Shown piece after piece: positions 14,062-60,166 of a DNA stretch of 64,000 nucleotides. Within the stretch, counting starts at the first letter, position 1. Each line of letters opens with the position of its first letter. Both the position numbers and the translations under genes were made by a program. Under the pieces are notes generated by a model that ran no database searches, was not told where the DNA came from, and saw only the letters and a list, made by a program, of their open reading frames with translations. Source of the stretch: Deltaproteobacteria bacterium (GTDB lineage Bacteria > Myxococcota > B64-G9); assembly GCA_019314375.1 (NCBI GenBank), contig JAFCZJ010000040.1, positions 1 to 64,000 on the forward strand, written 5' to 3'.

Positions 14062-14333
14062 GGCACAAAACGTTCCACTCCTGGACCGTATGCTTTCGCT
14101 CTTGACCCATGTGGAAAAGTCACGCCTCCTCTGGAACGTCTAGTTACCAGATCTACGCAAACTTTTCTTAGCCCTGTTTTTGTTGTGTTTTTTGTCCTGG
14201 CTGGCTTATCGGCCAGATGACCGATGTGCCATCTTGTCTCGATTCTGAAGTCAAAATTCCTGGACGTTTGACCAATGTTCCTTTTTTTGCTTATTTCTCC
14301 ATGCGTTATGGAGGAATCAAAAATCGACACAAC

Positions 14334-14350
14334 TTGGCACAGTGATTGCT
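14334..14350 (+). promoter_or_regulatory. Sigma54 (-24/-12) promoter
   Basis: TTGGCACAGTGATTGCT matches YTGGCACR-N4-TTGCW with GG-N10-GC spacing; about 40 bp upstream of the protease start. Confidence 0.8.
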
Positions 14351-25200: not shown

Positions 25201-25250
25201 AACACTTGTCAACAAAGGCATGTCATTGTCACACAGAGGTGACAAGTGTT
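25201..25250. promoter_or_regulatory. Long inverted repeat, putative operator/enhancer
   Basis: AACACTTGTCA (25201-25211) and TGACAAGTGTT (25240-25250), perfect 11-bp arms, 28-bp spacer; inner TTGTCAC (25226-25232)/GTGACAA (25239-25245). Confidence 0.7.
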
Positions 25251-32405: not shown

Positions 32406-32528
32406 TCCGCCTCATTTGTGCCTATCGCGCACGACTGTGACATGCCCGCCATGGTCCGGGCCGATGACGGCCTTTCCTCAAAGCTCAAGAATGCAGAAAC
32501 TTCCAAGACTCCCCGAGGACAAGAATGC

Positions 32529-32545
32529 CTGGCACAGTCCTTGCT
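32529..32545 (+). promoter_or_regulatory. Sigma54 (-24/-12) promoter
   Basis: CTGGCACAGTCCTTGCT, full match to YTGGCACR-N4-TTGCW; 83 bp upstream of the lipoprotein cluster. Confidence 0.82.
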
Positions 32546-32627: not shown

Positions 32628-33179
32628 ATGAAAACCATCCTCGGCATGTCTTTGTTGGCAATCTTTTCCCTCGGCCTGATGGTCGCCTGTGGCGGCTCTT
32701 CGGGCCCCTCCTGCGAAGACGTCTGCAACAAGATGGTCGAATGCGAGCAGGATGACAACGTGACCGAATGCTTGAACCAATGCGCCATCTTCAAAGACGC
32801 CCTGCGGAGCGAGGTCTATGCCGAACTGGGCGACTGTTTCATGGAAAACACCTGCGAAACGCTCAACGCAGAAGAAAATGGGGACATGTGTTTCGAGCAA
32901 GCCATGACCCTGGGCTCCACCACGGCCGGCGAGGCTCTGGTGGATGACCTGTGCGTCAAGTACGTTGAATGCGACGAGACGGAAACACTGACCCAGGAAG
33001 ACTGCGTCAGCCAAATGACAGCCGGAGGAGGAGAAGACGCCCTGGCAGCCATCGGCATGTTCAAAGACTCGGTGCTCGACTGCTTCGTCGGCTGCGTCAA
33101 CGATCTGACCTGTGCGGAAACGATGGACGACAACAACATGGACGCTTGCTCGCAAGACTGTGGTCTCCTCTTGGACTGA
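32628..33179 (+). CDS. Cys-rich lipoprotein, domain type A (array member 1)
   Basis: Lipobox LGLMVAC; GPSCEDVCNKMVEC...; paralogous to the following genes. Confidence 0.88.
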   Translation: MKTILGMSLLAIFSLGLMVACGGSSGPSCEDVCNKMVECEQDDNVTECLNQCAIFKDALRSEVYAELGDCFMENTCETLNAEENGDMCFEQAMTLGSTTAGEALVDDLCVKYVECDETETLTQEDCVSQMTAGGGEDALAAIGMFKDSVLDCFVGCVNDLTCAETMDDNNMDACSQDCGLLLD

Positions 33180-33199
33180 TGTCTGCGAAAGGAATCGAC

Positions 33200-34231
33200 A
33201 TGAAACGTTTCTTTATCCTGTCTCTCTTGGCTTTGTTTTCCCTTGGCCTGGCTGTCGCCTGCGGCGGTGGTTCGTCCGGACCGTCCTGCGAGGATGTCTG
33301 CACCAAGGTTAGCGAATGCGATTCCACCGAGGATTACAACGAATGCCTCAGCATGTGTGACATGTTCAAAGAAGTCATGCGGGACGAAGCCTATCAGGCC
33401 CTGGGCGATTGCACCATGGAACAAACCTGCGCCTTCATGGAAGAAAACGGCGATTATTGCTTCGAAGCGGCCATGGCGGAAGGCTCACTGACCGCCGCCC
33501 GTTCACTCATCGAGCGGATATGCACCACAATGGCCGCATGCGACACGACGGGCAACTACACCCAGCAACAATGCGTCGATGATATGACCAGCGGAGAAAA
33601 CGACGACCTTGACTCCGCCATGAGCATATTCAAAGACTCGGTCTTGGATTGCGTCGCCGACTGCGTTGAAAACGAGAGCTGCACAGACTTGGCCGAAGGC
33701 TCCGCCCAAGACTGCATGACAACTTGCGGCTTGGTCGTTTTCAGCAGCGATTTCTCGGGCCCCACCTGCGAGGACGTCTGCAACAAGATGGTCGAATGCG
33801 GGCTGGATACCGACATGACTGAATGCCTGAGCGGATGCGCCCCCTTCGAAGACTCCCTGCGGCCTGAGGTCTTTACCGAACTGGGTGACTGCTTCATGGA
33901 AAACACCTGCGAAACGCTCAACGCAGATGAAGACGGGGACATGTGTTTCAGACAAGCCATGACCCAAGGCTCCACCACGGCCGGCGCGGCTCTGGTGGAT
34001 GACCTGTGCGTCAAATACGTTGAATGCGACGATTCGGGAACACTGACCCAGGAAGACTGCGTCAGCCAGTTTACAGCCGAACAAGAAGGCGCCATAGCCC
34101 AGATCGGCATGTTCAAAGACTCGGTGCTCGACTGCTTCGTCGACTGCATCAACGGTCTGACCTGTGCGGAAGCGGCGGATGACAACAGCATGGACGCTTG
34201 CTCGCAAGACTGCGGTCTCTTCATAGACTGA
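33200..34231 (+). CDS. Cys-rich lipoprotein, B-A two-domain fusion (array member 2)
   Basis: MKRFFILSLLALFSLGLAVAC; second domain starts at SGPTCEDVCNKM without its own signal peptide. Confidence 0.9.
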   Translation: MKRFFILSLLALFSLGLAVACGGGSSGPSCEDVCTKVSECDSTEDYNECLSMCDMFKEVMRDEAYQALGDCTMEQTCAFMEENGDYCFEAAMAEGSLTAARSLIERICTTMAACDTTGNYTQQQCVDDMTSGENDDLDSAMSIFKDSVLDCVADCVENESCTDLAEGSAQDCMTTCGLVVFSSDFSGPTCEDVCNKMVECGLDTDMTECLSGCAPFEDSLRPEVFTELGDCFMENTCETLNADEDGDMCFRQAMTQGSTTAGAALVDDLCVKYVECDDSGTLTQEDCVSQFTAEQEGAIAQIGMFKDSVLDCFVDCINGLTCAEAADDNSMDACSQDCGLFID

Positions 34232-34251
34232 TGCAGACGAAAGGAATCGAC

Positions 34252-34818
34252 ATGAAACGTTTCTTCATCCTATCCCTCATGGCTTTGTTTTCCCTTGGTT
34301 TGACTGTCGCCTGCGGCGGCGGTTCGTCAGGCCCCTCCTGCGAGGATGTCTGCAGCAAGGTGAGCGAATGCGATCCCGCCGAGGATTACAACGAATGCCT
34401 CAGCATGTGTGACATGTTCAAAGACGTCCTGCGAGACGACGTCTATGAGACCCTGGGCGACTGCACCATGGAACAAACCTGCGCCTTCATGGAAGAAAAC
34501 GGCGATTTCTGCTTCGAGGCGGCCATGGCCGAAGGGTCACTGCCCGCCGCCCGTTCACTCATCGAGCGCATGTGCGTGGCAATCGCCGCATGCGACACAA
34601 CGGGCAACTACACGCAACAACAATGCGTCGATGAAATGACCGGGGTGGGCGAAGGCTCCGACGACCTGTACTACAGCATGAGCATGTTTAAAGACTCGGT
34701 CTTGGATTGCGTCGCCGACTGCATTGAGAATGAAAGCTGCGACGACCTGGCCAATGGCTCTGCGGAAGACTGCATGACAAATTGCGGCTTGGGCTTCGAG
34801 TCAAGCGACGACATCTAG
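34252..34818 (+). CDS. Cys-rich lipoprotein, domain type B (array member 3)
   Basis: MKRFFILSLMALFSLGLTVAC; near-identical N-terminus to member 2. Confidence 0.9.
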   Translation: MKRFFILSLMALFSLGLTVACGGGSSGPSCEDVCSKVSECDPAEDYNECLSMCDMFKDVLRDDVYETLGDCTMEQTCAFMEENGDFCFEAAMAEGSLPAARSLIERMCVAIAACDTTGNYTQQQCVDEMTGVGEGSDDLYYSMSMFKDSVLDCVADCIENESCDDLANGSAEDCMTNCGLGFESSDDI

Positions 34819-34845
34819 CCCAACCTGCTTAGAAGGAGAACAGAC

Positions 34846-35427
34846 ATGAAGACAATCATCAGCCTGTCTTTGATTGCCCTTCTTTCCCTGAGCCTGGCGG
34901 TCGCCTGTAGCAGCGGGTCCTCCGGCCCCTCTTGCGAAGACGTCTGCAACAAAATGGTCGAATGCGACCCCTTGGAGAACTACACCGAATGCATCGGTAG
35001 TTGCGGCGAATTCGAAGACGTCATGCGGGACGGCGTCTACGAGGCCCTGGGCAACTGCTACATGGACAACACCTGCGTGTTCCTTGAAGCCAATGGCGAA
35101 TACTGTCTTGAGGCGGCCATAGCCCAAGGCTCCCTGCCCGCGTCCCTGTCGCTCATCGAGCAAATATGCACCAAGTTCGTCTCTTGCGACACCGGTGCCT
35201 ACACGCAGCAACAATGCATCGATGACATGACCGGTGCCGACGAAGGCATCGACATGTACCACTACATGAGCATGTTTTCCGATTCGGTCCTGAACTGCGT
35301 TGGCACTTGCGTCGATGGAGAAGACTGCGGCGCTCTGGCGGACGATGGCCCGCTGATCTGCTTTGAAGAATGCGGCCTCGGCTTCATCGAAGGCAGCGAC
35401 GACGAAACAGACAACCCAGGGCAGTAA
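34846..35427 (+). CDS. Cys-rich lipoprotein, divergent paralogue (array member 4)
   Basis: MKTIISLSLIALLSLSLAVAC; same Cys spacing CEDVCNKMVECDPLENYTECIGSC. Confidence 0.9.
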   Translation: MKTIISLSLIALLSLSLAVACSSGSSGPSCEDVCNKMVECDPLENYTECIGSCGEFEDVMRDGVYEALGNCYMDNTCVFLEANGEYCLEAAIAQGSLPASLSLIEQICTKFVSCDTGAYTQQQCIDDMTGADEGIDMYHYMSMFSDSVLNCVGTCVDGEDCGALADDGPLICFEECGLGFIEGSDDETDNPGQ

Positions 35428-35898: not shown

Positions 35899-35945
35899 GT
35901 GACAAGTACCGACCCCATCCGGCCCACTGTGACAACATTGTCACA
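35899..35945. promoter_or_regulatory. Putative enhancer/operator: GTGACAA half-site plus TGTGACAA-CA-TTGTCACA palindrome
   Basis: Half-site 35899-35905; perfect 8-2-8 palindrome 35928-35945; about 90-105 bp upstream of the -24 at 36033. Confidence 0.65.
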
Positions 35946-36030
35946 AAGCCTGGCTTCGCCTGCCTCAGTGGCCGAGTCCGGTTGATCCACAAGACACTGT
36001 AATTCCCGAACAAAACGCCTGTGCGAACCG

Positions 36031-36047
36031 ATGGCATGCTCCTTGCT
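36031..36047 (+). promoter_or_regulatory. Sigma54 (-24/-12) promoter
   Basis: ATGGCATGCTCCTTGCT; GG-N10-GC spacing and TTGCT; 40 bp upstream of 36087. Confidence 0.72.
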
Positions 36048-36086
36048 GTTCTGATGAGCAGATGAGCATTCAATCAGGAGGTAAGC

Positions 36087-36713
36087 ATGACGACGTCACT
36101 TCGTAACTTGGGTCTTTTTGTTTGCTTGAGTCTTTTGGCCATGCCCGCAACGGTCCACGCCGACAATTCAGAGGCGACGACCGAGGTGGCCGCCAAACGC
36201 GGCATGCCCAACTTTTACCTGGCACACAACCTGACCTTCGCACCCAGCCCCTTGGCGCTTCACAACGACGGCTACGGGGAATGCGGCCAGCGTCTGGGCG
36301 ATGCCGTCGGCATGGAGCTCAACTTCGACTATCGCATCTGGTACTTTTTTCTGGGCAGCCACATCGCCATCTCCGGCGATATTTGGACCATGCGCGAATA
36401 CGCCCTGCGGGTCGGCGGCATGCTGCCTTTGGGCGAACGCTTCTCTTTGGTCGGGGCCGCCTGGCTGGGCACGTCCCATATCGAGACGACCTCTCTTGAC
36501 TGGGACAGCGATTATGCCTACGACACAGATAGAGAGGAAGCGGGGCTTTTGCTGGGTGCCTCCATCGGCGCGCGCTTCATGGTGGCCCGCTGGTTTGGTC
36601 TGACAGCCGACCTGAGTCTGTCTACCGCAATCTGGACAGACAACGACTCCAGCGACCCCGAGCTCCAGATCAACCGCCTTCAAGCCCACACCGGCGTGCT
36701 CTTCGCTTGGTAA
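36087..36713 (+). CDS. Outer-membrane beta-barrel-like protein
   Basis: Signal peptide MPATVHA; YRIWYFFLGSHIAISGDIW..., LLLGASIGARFMVARWFGLTADLSLS, C-terminal GVLFAW; AGGAGG RBS. Confidence 0.75.
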   Translation: MTTSLRNLGLFVCLSLLAMPATVHADNSEATTEVAAKRGMPNFYLAHNLTFAPSPLALHNDGYGECGQRLGDAVGMELNFDYRIWYFFLGSHIAISGDIWTMREYALRVGGMLPLGERFSLVGAAWLGTSHIETTSLDWDSDYAYDTDREEAGLLLGASIGARFMVARWFGLTADLSLSTAIWTDNDSSDPELQINRLQAHTGVLFAW

Positions 36714-54842: not shown

Positions 54843-56810
54843 ATGACAGGCTCGACATGGTGGGCCTTGGCCGGAGTCAGTTTGAAACCAAACGCGATCC
54901 AGCTCGAACGCTATGAAGTCCTCGAAGAAGTCGGGCGAGGCGGCATGGCGGTCGTCTACCGGGGCCACGATCGCAAACTGGACCGGGAAGTGGCCATCAA
55001 GGTGCTACACGCCCACCTGGCCTCGGAGGCGGAGAGCCAGCAACGCTTCCGCCTGGAGGCCAAGGCGGTAGCCCGATTAAAGCACCCCAACATCATCGAG
55101 ATCTATGACTTTTCGGACACAGACGAGGGACCCAGTTACATCGTCACCGAGTTCATCCATGGCTCTACGCTAAGAGCCTTCGTGCAACAACACGAAGCCT
55201 TCTTTCCCGAAGTGGCCGTGCTCATCACCATTTTCATCTGTGAAGCCATCGGCCACGCCCACAGCGAGCAAATCATTCATCGGGATCTCAAGCCCGAGAA
55301 TATTATGATCGATCAATCGGGCCAGCTGAAACTGATGGACTTCGGCATCGCCAAGGTCATTGACCAGCAACAACAGATGACCCTGACAGGCACCATCCTG
55401 GGTTCACCCACCCACATGGCGCCCGAACTCCTGGAAGGCAAGGCGTTAAGCTTCCGTTCCGATCTGTTTTCGGTGGGCACCATCCTGTACTGGTTGGCCA
55501 CGGGCCAGTTGCCCTTCAGCGGCAACAACCCCCACCAGGTGTTGAGACGGATACTGGAAGGCAGTTACCCGGATCCCCAGATGGTCAATCCTGAGCTGGG
55601 GATAAATCTCTGCCGCATCATCAAAAAGGCCCTGGCAAAAGACCCCGAGGAGCGCTTCGCCTCCGCCGCGGCCATGCAAACCGCCCTCAGGGCCGAGGTG
55701 GCCGAGTTGGGCCTGGATGACGTGGGTGCCGAACTCAAGACTTGTTTCGAGGATCCGCCCGGCTACATCAAGGCCATCAAACAACGCGTGGTGCGGCATT
55801 TGGAAACCAGGACCGAGAAACTCCTGGTGGCCAAGAAACACCGCCAGTGCTTGGAAGACCTGGATAGACTCTTGGCCTTAGACCCGCAACATGCCAGAGC
55901 CCACGAAATTCTCTCTCGGCTGCAGCGCCGCAGCCGGTGGCGTCACATCAGCGGGCTGGCGGGCTTGGGTGCCGGCGGACTGGCCCTGTTGGCAGGGATC
56001 TTTTGGTTCTTTTGGTTCTTGTGGCCCTTGATGGCACCCCTCGATTCCACCCCGGACGCAGGTCTGAATTCGGTCGCTCAAGACGCAGGCGTGGTCCCGC
56101 CGGAGGACGCGGGTTCCAAGCCATCAGCCGCCGACTCAAATACAACCGGATCCGTCGATAAAACCGACGGCTCAGACGCGGGACAAGACGCTGGACAAAA
56201 TGGAGATGCTACCCTGCCCAAGCGCCGAGGGGATCGACGTCGCTTCTTGTTCCGCGGCGACCGACGCAGCCCACGACTCCAGCTCCCAAAAACTCTCCCG
56301 CATCAGGTGGTCATCAAGGTGGATCCCTACTTCGATCAGCTGCGCATCGGTGACAAACTGGTGGCGCAGCGCGATCGGCAAAATGCATACGGTCAACAAT
56401 ACAAGGGCAAACTGAAGGCCGGCAAATATCGTGTGATGATCGAAAACCAAGCCTGCCAAACCGACGAATTTGAGCTGGTGGTGCCCTCCAAGCCACCATC
56501 GGATAAGCCCCTGGAGTTTCGACGCAAGCTCCGCTTTCGACCTGCCCGACTGGTCATCGAAAGCCAGTTTTCGGACTCTTCGGTCTGGGTTAACGGCATT
56601 TTCAAGGGCTCCGCTCAGGCATCCAAGGCCAAACCCATCGTCATCCCCATTGAAGGAGCCACTGGACGACTCAAGGTCAAATTGCGCTTGAGCCACCCAA
56701 AAGAAGGCGAGCACCAAGCCCAGATCAACGTGCTGGCTGGCCGCCAAAAAGTGTACAGGGTGTCCCAGGGCGATTTCCGCCCCAAGACGACCAGCGGGGG
56801 ATCACCATGA
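54843..56810 (+). CDS. Serine/threonine protein kinase with C-terminal TM and PEGA-like domain
   Basis: GGMAVVYRGHD, VAIKVL, IIHRDLKPENIM, MDFGIAKV; C-terminal LKAGKYRVMIENQACQTDEFEL. Confidence 0.94.
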   Translation: MTGSTWWALAGVSLKPNAIQLERYEVLEEVGRGGMAVVYRGHDRKLDREVAIKVLHAHLASEAESQQRFRLEAKAVARLKHPNIIEIYDFSDTDEGPSYIVTEFIHGSTLRAFVQQHEAFFPEVAVLITIFICEAIGHAHSEQIIHRDLKPENIMIDQSGQLKLMDFGIAKVIDQQQQMTLTGTILGSPTHMAPELLEGKALSFRSDLFSVGTILYWLATGQLPFSGNNPHQVLRRILEGSYPDPQMVNPELGINLCRIIKKALAKDPEERFASAAAMQTALRAEVAELGLDDVGAELKTCFEDPPGYIKAIKQRVVRHLETRTEKLLVAKKHRQCLEDLDRLLALDPQHARAHEILSRLQRRSRWRHISGLAGLGAGGLALLAGIFWFFWFLWPLMAPLDSTPDAGLNSVAQDAGVVPPEDAGSKPSAADSNTTGSVDKTDGSDAGQDAGQNGDATLPKRRGDRRRFLFRGDRRSPRLQLPKTLPHQVVIKVDPYFDQLRIGDKLVAQRDRQNAYGQQYKGKLKAGKYRVMIENQACQTDEFELVVPSKPPSDKPLEFRRKLRFRPARLVIESQFSDSSVWVNGIFKGSAQASKAKPIVIPIEGATGRLKVKLRLSHPKEGEHQAQINVLAGRQKVYRVSQGDFRPKTTSGGSP

Positions 56811-57735
56811 TTCGCCTGCTGCTGATCTTGATCATCGCGGGTCTGCTTTTGCCTGCACAGGCCTTTGCGGATTCCGTGGCCGAACGTTTCGCCGCGGCCA
56901 AGCTGGAGTTCGAATACAAAAACTTCGACAAGGCCATCGAAAAACTGGGGCCCTTGCTCAACCCCACGGCCCAACTCAGCGCCGAGGCCGACATCGTGGC
57001 CGCCCGGGAAATGCTGAGCCTGGCCCACTTCTATCTTGGCCATGAAAAACTGGCGCGCATCGAGTTCATCGAGCTTCTGTATCTCCGCCCCAAGCACGAG
57101 TTGGACGCCTTTTTGGTGCCGCCTCCAGCGGTGAAGTTTTTTTCAGCCATCCGCAACGAGCCCGCCATGAAAGAAAAACTCGAACGCATCGAACGAGAAC
57201 GACAGGAAGCAGCAGAGCAAGAGAGGGAAAAAAACCGCCCCCCGAGCGTGGTGCGGCGCATCTATCTGGAACGCAGCAACGACACCCACCTGCGCTTCCT
57301 GGCCTTCATGCCTTTTGGGCTGGGACAATTTCAAAACGGCCATGAAGTGAAGGCCTACACCATCCTGGCGGCCCAGAGCATGGCCTTGATCGGTTATACG
57401 GCCAGCGTATCGCTCCTGGTGGCCCTGCGTGACAAGGACAACAAATTTCCTGCGGGACAACTTGATTTGGCCAAGGGGGCCTATGCCACCCAGTTTATCA
57501 CCGGCGGGATCTTCGCTGCCCTGTGGGTCTATAGCTTATCACCGGCGGGATCTTCGCTGCCCTGTGGGTCTATAGCGCCATCGACGCCAACATCTATTAC
57601 AGCCCCGAAGTGGTTCATCCTTTCAAGCGCGTGCGAGAAGAAGTGGAGCTCCCCAAGGCGACGAGCGAACCCAGCATCACCCCGGTGGTTCTGCCCGGTG
57701 GTGCCGGGTTGCGCTTCACCTTGGGATTTGACTAA
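56807..57735 (+). pseudogene. Signal-peptide TPR-like protein gene, frameshifted by a 41-bp tandem duplication
   Basis: ATGA overlap with kinase stop; removing one 41-bp copy (57495-57576) restores ...FAALWVYSAIDANIYYSPEVVHPFKRVREEVELPKATSEPSITPVVLPGGAGLRFTLGFD-TAA (296 codons including the stop). Confidence 0.9.
57495..57576 (+). repeat. Exact tandem duplication of 41 bp
   Basis: TTATCACCGGCGGGATCTTCGCTGCCCTGTGGGTCTATAGC x2. Confidence 0.98.
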
Positions 57736-57760: not shown

Positions 57761-59554
57761 ATGCCAACACTGCAGTTTATCGCCAAAGACGCCAAACGCC
57801 CCACCCGCGTCAACCTCTTCAAGCGCATCACCACCTTAGGGGCGGCCCCCGAATGCGACGTGTCCATCCAGGGACAAGATTTGGCCGAGACCCACGCCAA
57901 CATCCACTTCGACGGCAAAGAATTCACCATCTCCAGCATGGACAAGAACACGGCCGTGCTGGTCAATACCAAGAAAATCAAGAATCACAGCCTGGCCCAC
58001 AAGGACAAAATCCGCCTGGGCAACGCTGAGCTGACTTTCTCGATTTACGATGAACCCATGGGCGAAGACGACGACCTGGAATCGGCCCGCATGGAGGCCT
58101 ACCAAAAAATGGTCGAGTTCTCCTCCCGCCTGGCAAGCCGCGCCAGCTTGACGGATCTCTTGGCCGCCCTGCTCGACAGCGTCATCGAGCTCACCCGCGC
58201 CGACAAGGGCATGCTCATCTTGCTGGAAGGCAACAGCCTGCAGGTCAAAGCCGCCCGGAACCTGAAGCGAGAGCATATCGAAGACGCGGTCCGGCAAGTC
58301 TCCGACAGCATCGTGGCCAAGGTGGTGCAAAGCAAACAAGCGCTGATCGTTTCCGATGCACTCAACGACGAGGACTTCAAAAACTCGGCCTCGGTGGTCA
58401 ATCTGAAGCTCTGCTCGGTCATGGCCGCACCCCTGATGGAGAAGGGCAGCCTCTTCGGCATCCTCTACGTCGGCAATGACAACGTGGTCAACCTCTTCGA
58501 GGACAGCTCTTTGGAAGTGCTGAAGGTCTTCGCCTCGCAGGCATCCTTGTTGGTCCAAAACGCTCTGCTGGTCGACGAGTTGCGCTTGGACAACCGAGAA
58601 CTGAACGAACGCCTGGAGCGCATGCGCTTCGGCGACATCATCGGGGCCTGCGCGCCCATGAAAGAAATCTACGCCAAAATCGAAAAAGTGGCACCGACCG
58701 ACATCTCCGTACTCATCTCAGGCGAGACCGGCACCGGCAAAGAACTGGTGGCCCGGCGTATCCACGAGCTGAGCCCACGGGCGAAAGGCCCTTTCGTCAC
58801 CATCAACTGTGGTGCCATCCCGGAAAACCTCCTGGAAAGCGAACTCTTCGGCCACGTCAAGGGGGCCTTCACCGGCGCGGTGGCCACCCGGCAGGGTCGG
58901 TTCCAGGCAGCCCACGGCGGCACCCTGTTCCTCGATGAAATCGGCGAGTTGCCATTAAGCCTGCAGGTCAAACTTTTGAGGGCCTTGCAGGAACACACGG
59001 TGACCAAGGTGGGTGATACCAAAGTCGAGACGGTGGACATCCGTGTGGTCAGCGCCACCAACCGAACCCTTGAAATTGAGATCAAGGAAAACCGATTCCG
59101 AGAGGATCTCTATTACCGGATCAACGTGGTCAACCTGCATCTGCCCCCACTTAGAGAGAGAGACGAAGACGTCTTGGCCATCGCCAAATACCTGCTGGCC
59201 AAATTCACAGAGGAGTTTGGTTCCAAGGCCAAGGGATTTACACCCTCGGCCGCCATGGGCATGCGCAAGTTCGGCTGGCCCGGCAACATCCGAGAATTGG
59301 AAAACAAACTCAAGAAAGCCGTGGTTCTGGCGGACAAGACCCACATCACGGCCGAAGATCTGGACATCCGACCGGAGGACTTCGAGCCGGTGATGTCTTT
59401 GGCTCTGGCCAAGGACGAATTTCAGCGTCGGTACATCAATCAGGTCCTTGCTCGCAACGACTCCAATCGGACCAAAACAGCCAGGGACCTGGGCGTGGAC
59501 CCACGGACCATCTTCAGGCATCTGGAAAAAGAGGCCGAATTGAATGAGGCCTGA
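57761..59554 (+). CDS. FHA-GAF sigma54-dependent transcriptional activator
   Basis: GGAGG RBS and ATG at 57761; FHA-like N-terminus; GAF-like region; GETGTGKE, ESELFGHVKGAFTGAVATRQGRFQAAHGGTLFLDEIGEL; Fis HTH NRTKTARDLGVDPRTIFRHL. Confidence 0.94.
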   Translation: MPTLQFIAKDAKRPTRVNLFKRITTLGAAPECDVSIQGQDLAETHANIHFDGKEFTISSMDKNTAVLVNTKKIKNHSLAHKDKIRLGNAELTFSIYDEPMGEDDDLESARMEAYQKMVEFSSRLASRASLTDLLAALLDSVIELTRADKGMLILLEGNSLQVKAARNLKREHIEDAVRQVSDSIVAKVVQSKQALIVSDALNDEDFKNSASVVNLKLCSVMAAPLMEKGSLFGILYVGNDNVVNLFEDSSLEVLKVFASQASLLVQNALLVDELRLDNRELNERLERMRFGDIIGACAPMKEIYAKIEKVAPTDISVLISGETGTGKELVARRIHELSPRAKGPFVTINCGAIPENLLESELFGHVKGAFTGAVATRQGRFQAAHGGTLFLDEIGELPLSLQVKLLRALQEHTVTKVGDTKVETVDIRVVSATNRTLEIEIKENRFREDLYYRINVVNLHLPPLRERDEDVLAIAKYLLAKFTEEFGSKAKGFTPSAAMGMRKFGWPGNIRELENKLKKAVVLADKTHITAEDLDIRPEDFEPVMSLALAKDEFQRRYINQVLARNDSNRTKTARDLGVDPRTIFRHLEKEAELNEA

Positions 59555-59611
59555 AAGCATGGCAGCCATGTCAGGGTCCCCGAGATGGAGCCTGGCCTTA
59601 CCGGGATAGCG

Positions 59612-60166
59612 ATGAAGGTATTAGGGCTAAAAATTCAAACACTTACACACCTGCGCGTCAGACCGGCACTCTTCTTGCTTCTTCTACTTGCCGTGGCCTC
59701 AGCCCTCGGTCTTGCGGGCTGCGTGCTGGGGCCCATTGAAGCCGCGGAGGAAGAGCCCATGTACCCGCCTCGCATCATTTTGGAAAAACTCTACCCCCCC
59801 ATGGAGGGCATCATCACGGTGCGCCGGGAAGACTGCGAGCGGATCACCTTCAAAGCCGATTCCGTGTTCGACCGCAACAAAGACGACGTCTTGTACGTTT
59901 GGTGGGTCTTGGATTGGGAAGGGGGCGATATCTCCACCGAGGCCGAAAAAGAAGCCTTCATCGGTAAAATGGGCGATGAGATCCGATCCGGCCCACAGCT
60001 GGATAACACCCTGAACCTGAGCAATCAAACCGATACCTTCTTTGATCAGCATCACAGCATGACCCTGTTTGTTCGGGATCGCATCCTGCAAGACGAAGAA
60101 GGTCAGATGGACAGCTATCAGTGGACTTTTGAAGTGGTGCCTGGCGGCACCTACTGCGACGAGTAA
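59612..60166 (+). CDS. Predicted lipoprotein, unknown function
   Basis: VASALGLAGC lipobox. Confidence 0.7.
   Translation: MKVLGLKIQTLTHLRVRPALFLLLLLAVASALGLAGCVLGPIEAAEEEPMYPPRIILEKLYPPMEGIITVRREDCERITFKADSVFDRNKDDVLYVWWVLDWEGGDISTEAEKEAFIGKMGDEIRSGPQLDNTLNLSNQTDTFFDQHHSMTLFVRDRILQDEEGQMDSYQWTFEVVPGGTYCDE

Follow-up and report, generated by a model that had tools for sequence, protein, structure and literature searches.

A very likely sigma54 promoter with an upstream palindromic activator site in an uncultured myxobacterium, and a conserved FHA-GAF enhancer-binding protein as its candidate regulator

The window analysed here is a stretch of 64,000 nucleotides on a 95-kb contig; its genome (G000) comprises 6.66 Mb in 370 contigs. 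All genomes considered are draft MAGs, and the assembly containing the window has an estimated contamination of 5.83%. Its class consists of nine genomes only, all from one family, and the named relatives reached via the product of gene 57761 are uncultured Myxococcota or Deltaproteobacteria MAGs. Genes are designated by their start positions, and the features discussed are collected in Table 1. The ATG of the presumed controlled gene, 36087, is preceded by AGGAGG. The initial annotation had described its product as a small beta-barrel, an assignment that is weak: the match to PF13505 (E=5e-4) was below the gathering score, and a single-sequence AlphaFold model, built with no alignment, had a pLDDT of 37. 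Among 58 related genomes, one clear orthologue was detected (47% identity, in G007, which belongs to a different genus); a scan of genome contigs returned no orthologue.

Table 1. Regulatory elements and genes of the window, with the evidence for each.
Position	Strand	Feature	Evidence or remark
14335-14350	+	Consensus sigma54 promoter, second of the window; trypsin-like protein	TGTGCCATCTTGTCTCG, a related N3 site, at 14225-14241
32530-32545	+	Consensus sigma54 promoter, third of the window; Cys-rich lipoprotein array	Weak site TGTGACATGCCCGCCATGG at 32436
35899-35905	+	Extra half-site GTGACAA, 30 bp further upstream of the palindrome	Possible second, weaker contact
35928-35945	+	Putative upstream activator site; perfect 18-bp palindrome TGTGACAACATTGTCACA, i.e. 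TGTGACAA-CA-TTGTCACA	Core GACA-N4-TGTC
36032-36047	+	sigma54 -24/-12 promoter TGGCATGCTCCTTGCT	11/11 consensus positions
36087-36713	+	Gene presumed to be controlled; exported protein of 208 aa, perhaps a small beta-barrel of the outer membrane	ORF; PF13505 below cut-off
54843-56810	+	Ser/Thr protein kinase gene upstream of 57761; possible source of FHA signal	Pfam, synteny
57761-59554	+	Candidate activator; enhancer-binding protein (EBP) of 597 aa with the domains FHA, GAF, AAA+ (sigma54 interaction), and HTH_8	Pfam
59559-59575	+	GRCR-N4-TGTC site directly 3' of the 57761 stop codon (ATGGCAGCCATGTCAGG)	Nine genomes; top matrix score in window
59664-59679	+	sigma54-like element CGGCACTCTTCTTGCT; distance from the TGTC of the 59559 site, 95 bp	Overlaps lipoprotein reading frame

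The GG-N10-GC element that the initial annotation had placed before 36087 is present and matches the full sigma54 consensus, with the two dinucleotides 10 bp apart within TGGCAYN5TTGCW and agreement at every scored position. The genome contains 57 matches to the consensus TGGCAYNNNNNTTGCW and three to the reversed pattern, and a single rpoN gene was found (PF04552, E=2.1e-63). Transcription of 36087 would be expected to depend on it. The perfect palindrome and the additional GTGACAA were also where they had been reported. Allowing up to three mismatches, the palindrome occurs once in the window (0.12 expected). Its core, the dyad GACA-N4-TGTC, lies at 35931-35942, and its TGTC begins 93 bp before the -24 element. 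The heptamer GTGACAA alone was only mildly enriched in the window (12 occurrences vs 6.1).

The outer half-sites of the palindrome, TGTGA and TCACA, agree with the half-site of CRP, and a CRP/FNR-family regulator bound there might modulate the promoter in place of an EBP. We consider this very improbable, since the palindrome has a spacer of 8 rather than the usual 6 of TGTGA-N6-TCACA, the part conserved across relatives is the inner GACA/TGTC and not the outer TGTG, and the centre, about 95 bp above the -24 element, is at a typical EBP-site position. A NifA-type site (TGT-N10-ACA) was not found at the palindrome either, the spacer being 12 and not 10, and 57761 scored below the NifA cut-off. 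Among the papers listed by a literature search for TGTGACA in connection with sigma54, none described such a site.

Conservation was assessed by orthology. Upstream of the G007 orthologue lie a promoter matching 10 of 11 positions (TGGCACGCCGCGTGCA) and a core, GACACCGTTGTC, that contains a perfect GACA-N4-TGTC with its TGTC 90 bp above the -24 element (93 bp in the window); this is one independent comparison for promoter and core alike. A broader view came from 208 consensus promoters (57 from G000, 77 from G006, 56 from G007, and 18 from others). Perfect GACA-N4-TGTC dyads with the TGTC 80-119 bp above the -24 element preceded 11 of the 208, compared with 0.10 expected from shuffles, although the set includes orthologous promoters and the counts are not fully independent. 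Excluding the 36087 site, 10 promoters remained (P about 3e-17), and only three occurrences were found in the remaining 350 bp. GACA-N3-TGTC was detected seven times at 80-119 bp (0.12 expected) and nine times in the remaining 350 bp. Spacers of 0-2 and 5-9 gave no occurrence at 80-119 bp among the 208 promoters, so that 3 and 4 were the only enriched spacers at that distance. Class-wide, the pattern GACANNNNTGTC-N80..110-TGGCN8TGC returned 31 matches (not all of them good promoters, and some inside open reading frames) and none for the reversed control. GTCCGGA and TGTGACA were the top two heptamers above the 57 G000 promoters; with 4706 heptamers compared, the TGTGACA enrichment is only suggestive, and its distance control (25 matches at N85-115 vs 8 at N385-415) was weaker than the dyad test.

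These counts identify the inner dyad GACA-N4-TGTC, which also has a related N3 form, as the element that recurs, rather than the 18-mer. In a genome-wide scan, the exact 18-mer TGTGACAACATTGTCACA was present as a single copy in 6.66 Mb and was rejected as a regulon signature for that reason. Its uniqueness and the mild enrichment of exact GTGACAA would fit a palindrome arisen by chance next to a genuine sigma54 promoter, or the lack of a functional promoter. Given the core retained in G007 and its strong distance- and spacer-specific enrichment, either reading appears most unlikely. We regard it as very likely that 36087 has a sigma54 promoter with an EBP site upstream.

A variant of this core also adjoins an EBP gene of the same window. 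The product of 57761 contains the sigma54-interaction domain (PF00158, E=4.5e-73) with the GAFTGA motif, as well as a Fis-type HTH (PF02954, E=1.3e-5). Orthologues occur in all nine genomes of the class (67-79% identity), with one match each in eight; in G005, two partial matches at contig ends indicate a split gene. In each of the nine, GRCR-N4-TGTC directly follows the stop codon. A sigma54-like element lies 92-95 bp downstream of the TGTC in eight genomes and 106 bp downstream in the ninth, while the sequence between the two is not conserved. Three more distant genomes, in which the EBP is 59-62% identical, have a perfect GACA-N4-TGTC 59-70 bp above TGGCAC-N5..-CTGCT; in other distant genomes, no intergenic space follows the EBP gene.

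In the genomes examined, the sigma54-like element at 59664 and its counterparts are in frame with the downstream lipoprotein ORF (e.g. LAPFLR), and its conservation may therefore be partly coding. In four genomes, the stretch from the preceding stop to the element contains no in-frame ATG, GTG or TTG, and starts just past the predicted transcription start often yield good lipoprotein signal peptides; the element is thus compatible with a promoter.

Using a matrix built from eleven EBP-adjacent sites of genomes other than G000, we ranked the about 64,000 positions of the window. The 59559 site came first and position 35929, the 36087 palindrome, second. As shuffled windows contained a mean of 0.28 sites scoring as well as 35929, this rank is support and not proof, and the match derives its weight from its position rather than from its score alone. 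The sole genomic copy of the 18-mer with two mismatches (C79:22102) likewise has a consensus promoter downstream of it; the matrix score of this copy was only 2 bits, and its membership in the regulon is doubtful.

The gene order kinase, 56807 gene, EBP, lipoprotein, and 60197 is conserved in the class; outside the class, the first three of these genes keep that order. Within the 56807 gene, a direct duplication of about 40 bp (window 57501-57576), either an assembly error or a real mutation, shifts the frame, which is why the listed 915-aa ORF overruns the EBP gene in another frame.

Starting from the promoter, the dyad, their spacing and conservation, and the recurrence of the dyad beside 57761, all of which can be read from the DNA, we infer the following scheme, which as a whole we consider reasonably probable. 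Sigma54-RNA polymerase would transcribe 36087 from 36032-36047, and an EBP would bind the dyad, whose centre lies about 95 bp above the -24 element, and open the promoter via DNA looping and ATP hydrolysis. The activator would most likely be the 57761 protein, with the adjacent kinase 54843 probably switching it on through phosphothreonine signals read by its FHA domain. The choice of 57761, the best-supported one by conservation and gene context, is a fairly probable one, as the core site recurs both at envelope genes of relatives and beside this conserved gene.

Myxobacteria encode EBPs in very large numbers, and for few of these is the DNA site known. A single query gave 26 genome matches at E<=1e-60, with dozens of EBPs per genome, and the palindrome may be bound by another of them, either 21938 or a different FHA or response-regulator EBP. 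In front of different orthologous genes, the dyad varies in its outer bases and has a spacer of N3 or N4, which suggests several related specificities. Among the subset of EBP genes examined, however, none but 57761 has a conserved adjoining dyad, and we consider a different binder unlikely, if well within consideration.

Both FHA-EBPs, 21938 and 57761, had been put forward as candidates in the initial annotation, and conservation and context favour the latter. Orthologues of 21938 were found in G003, G004, and G006 (54-63% identity), with a paralogue in G000, but in G007 and G001 no match exceeded 46% identity. The counterpart operon in G004 has no TGTGACA sites. Lacking an orthologue at this level in G007, a genome that retains both the 36087 orthologue and the site of that gene, 21938 was rejected as the regulator of 36087.

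The 9-mer GTGACAAGT at 35899 does recur upstream of 25475 (at 25239), as noted earlier, but the assignment of 25475 to the same regulon was not supported: its promoter-like site, TGGCACGTTCCTTCCA, lacks the GC at -12, the GTGACAA copies are arranged differently, and the G004 counterpart has no such sites. The intergenic region between the divergent genes 25177 and 25475 also contains a long inverted repeat, ACACTTGTCA...TGACAAGTGT (25205-25250), that is not conserved in the G004 counterpart.

With 57761 as the candidate activator, several putative targets lie in the envelope. GACA-N4-TGTC in the same arrangement with a sigma54 promoter was found upstream of lpxC in four genera (L328, L336, L337, and L338; Pfam LpxC E=1.6e-101 for the L338 gene). 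The same arrangement precedes a gene for a protein of about 125 aa in seven genera (L054, L200, L272, L318, L320, L324, and L325); this family had no Pfam or NCBIfam match, and for L325 the site came from the pattern search and the gene from tblastn, its ORF not being placed automatically. Variants with an N3 spacer or a single mismatch occur upstream of a gspC-like gene, a gene of the FlhB/YscU family, and PilZ-like candidates (labelled by inspection only). The initial idea of a sigma54 envelope regulon with a defined upstream site is supported as to the promoter, the EBP-type site, and a wider regulon including envelope genes; its defining element is the inner dyad, the full palindrome being unique. 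On sequence conservation alone, a defined site and a list of putative targets, among them lpxC, exported proteins, and lipoproteins, can be assigned to a single EBP of wide conservation, which opens the way to direct tests. That a Ser/Thr kinase and FHA-GAF EBP module runs, through GACA-N4-TGTC, a sigma54 envelope regulon including lpxC throughout this uncultured myxobacterial class is a tentative extension that we hold to be rather unlikely.

FHA-domain EBPs of Myxococcus xanthus were reportedly described by Jelsbak, Givskov and Kaiser (PNAS 2005, cited in PMC12288465). These authors are said to have proposed a link between Ser/Thr kinases and the sigma54 regulon. Like these, 57761 combines FHA, a sigma54-interaction AAA+ domain, and a Fis-type HTH; it differs by its GAF domain, the conserved kinase-EBP-lipoprotein order, and a proposed DNA site. 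NmpR of M. xanthus, a response regulator and NtrC-type EBP, likewise has a short interrupted palindrome above sigma54 promoters that was defined in silico, GCGCA-N5-TGCGC, present as two sites 14-15 bp apart (PMC11841059); the 36087 palindrome has another half-site and spacer. In Desulfovibrio vulgaris, EBP sites of the sigma54 regulome were obtained by comparative reconstruction, with a -24/-12 consensus of tGGcacg/tTGCt (PMC4641369). The inverted repeat of its flagellar EBP, yGTCA-N6-TGACr (PMC4641369), differs from GACA-N4-TGTC in orientation and spacing.

Genes for lipopolysaccharide, lipoproteins, and the envelope have been linked with sigma54 both in a paper that presents it as a controller of the bacterial exterior (Francke et al. 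2011, PMC3162934) and in a survey from 2025 (PMC12316311). In the survey, the COGs enriched in Myxococcia include those of LpxC and type II secretion. The portions of these two papers considered here name neither the GACA-N4-TGTC site nor the 57761 EBP. The survey also states, with reference to Keseler and Kaiser 1997, that sigma54 is essential to M. xanthus (PMC12316311); if lpxC were controlled by such a site in Myxococcus too, this could help to explain that essentiality.

Further promoter-associated sequences were noted. A second, dominant class of activator site, TGTCCGGA/TCCGGACA, was evident among the 208 promoters, with TCCGGACA in 19 of them vs 0.7 expected (e.g. L023, L026, L039, L067, and L068). 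At L067 (G000:C331, about 38960), the region upstream of a gene that is recA-like by inspection combines a sigma54 promoter of consensus type with a GTGTCCGGATTCCGGACAC palindrome. Within the window, the promoter at 32530 is followed by an array of similar Cys-rich lipoprotein genes with an SCEDVC motif (32628-35427). Finally, CACTGTAATTCC (window 35995-36006) is common to the sigma54 promoters of 36087 and L029, 25-37 bp above the -24 element, and TACACTGTAA was found in some promoters of relatives.
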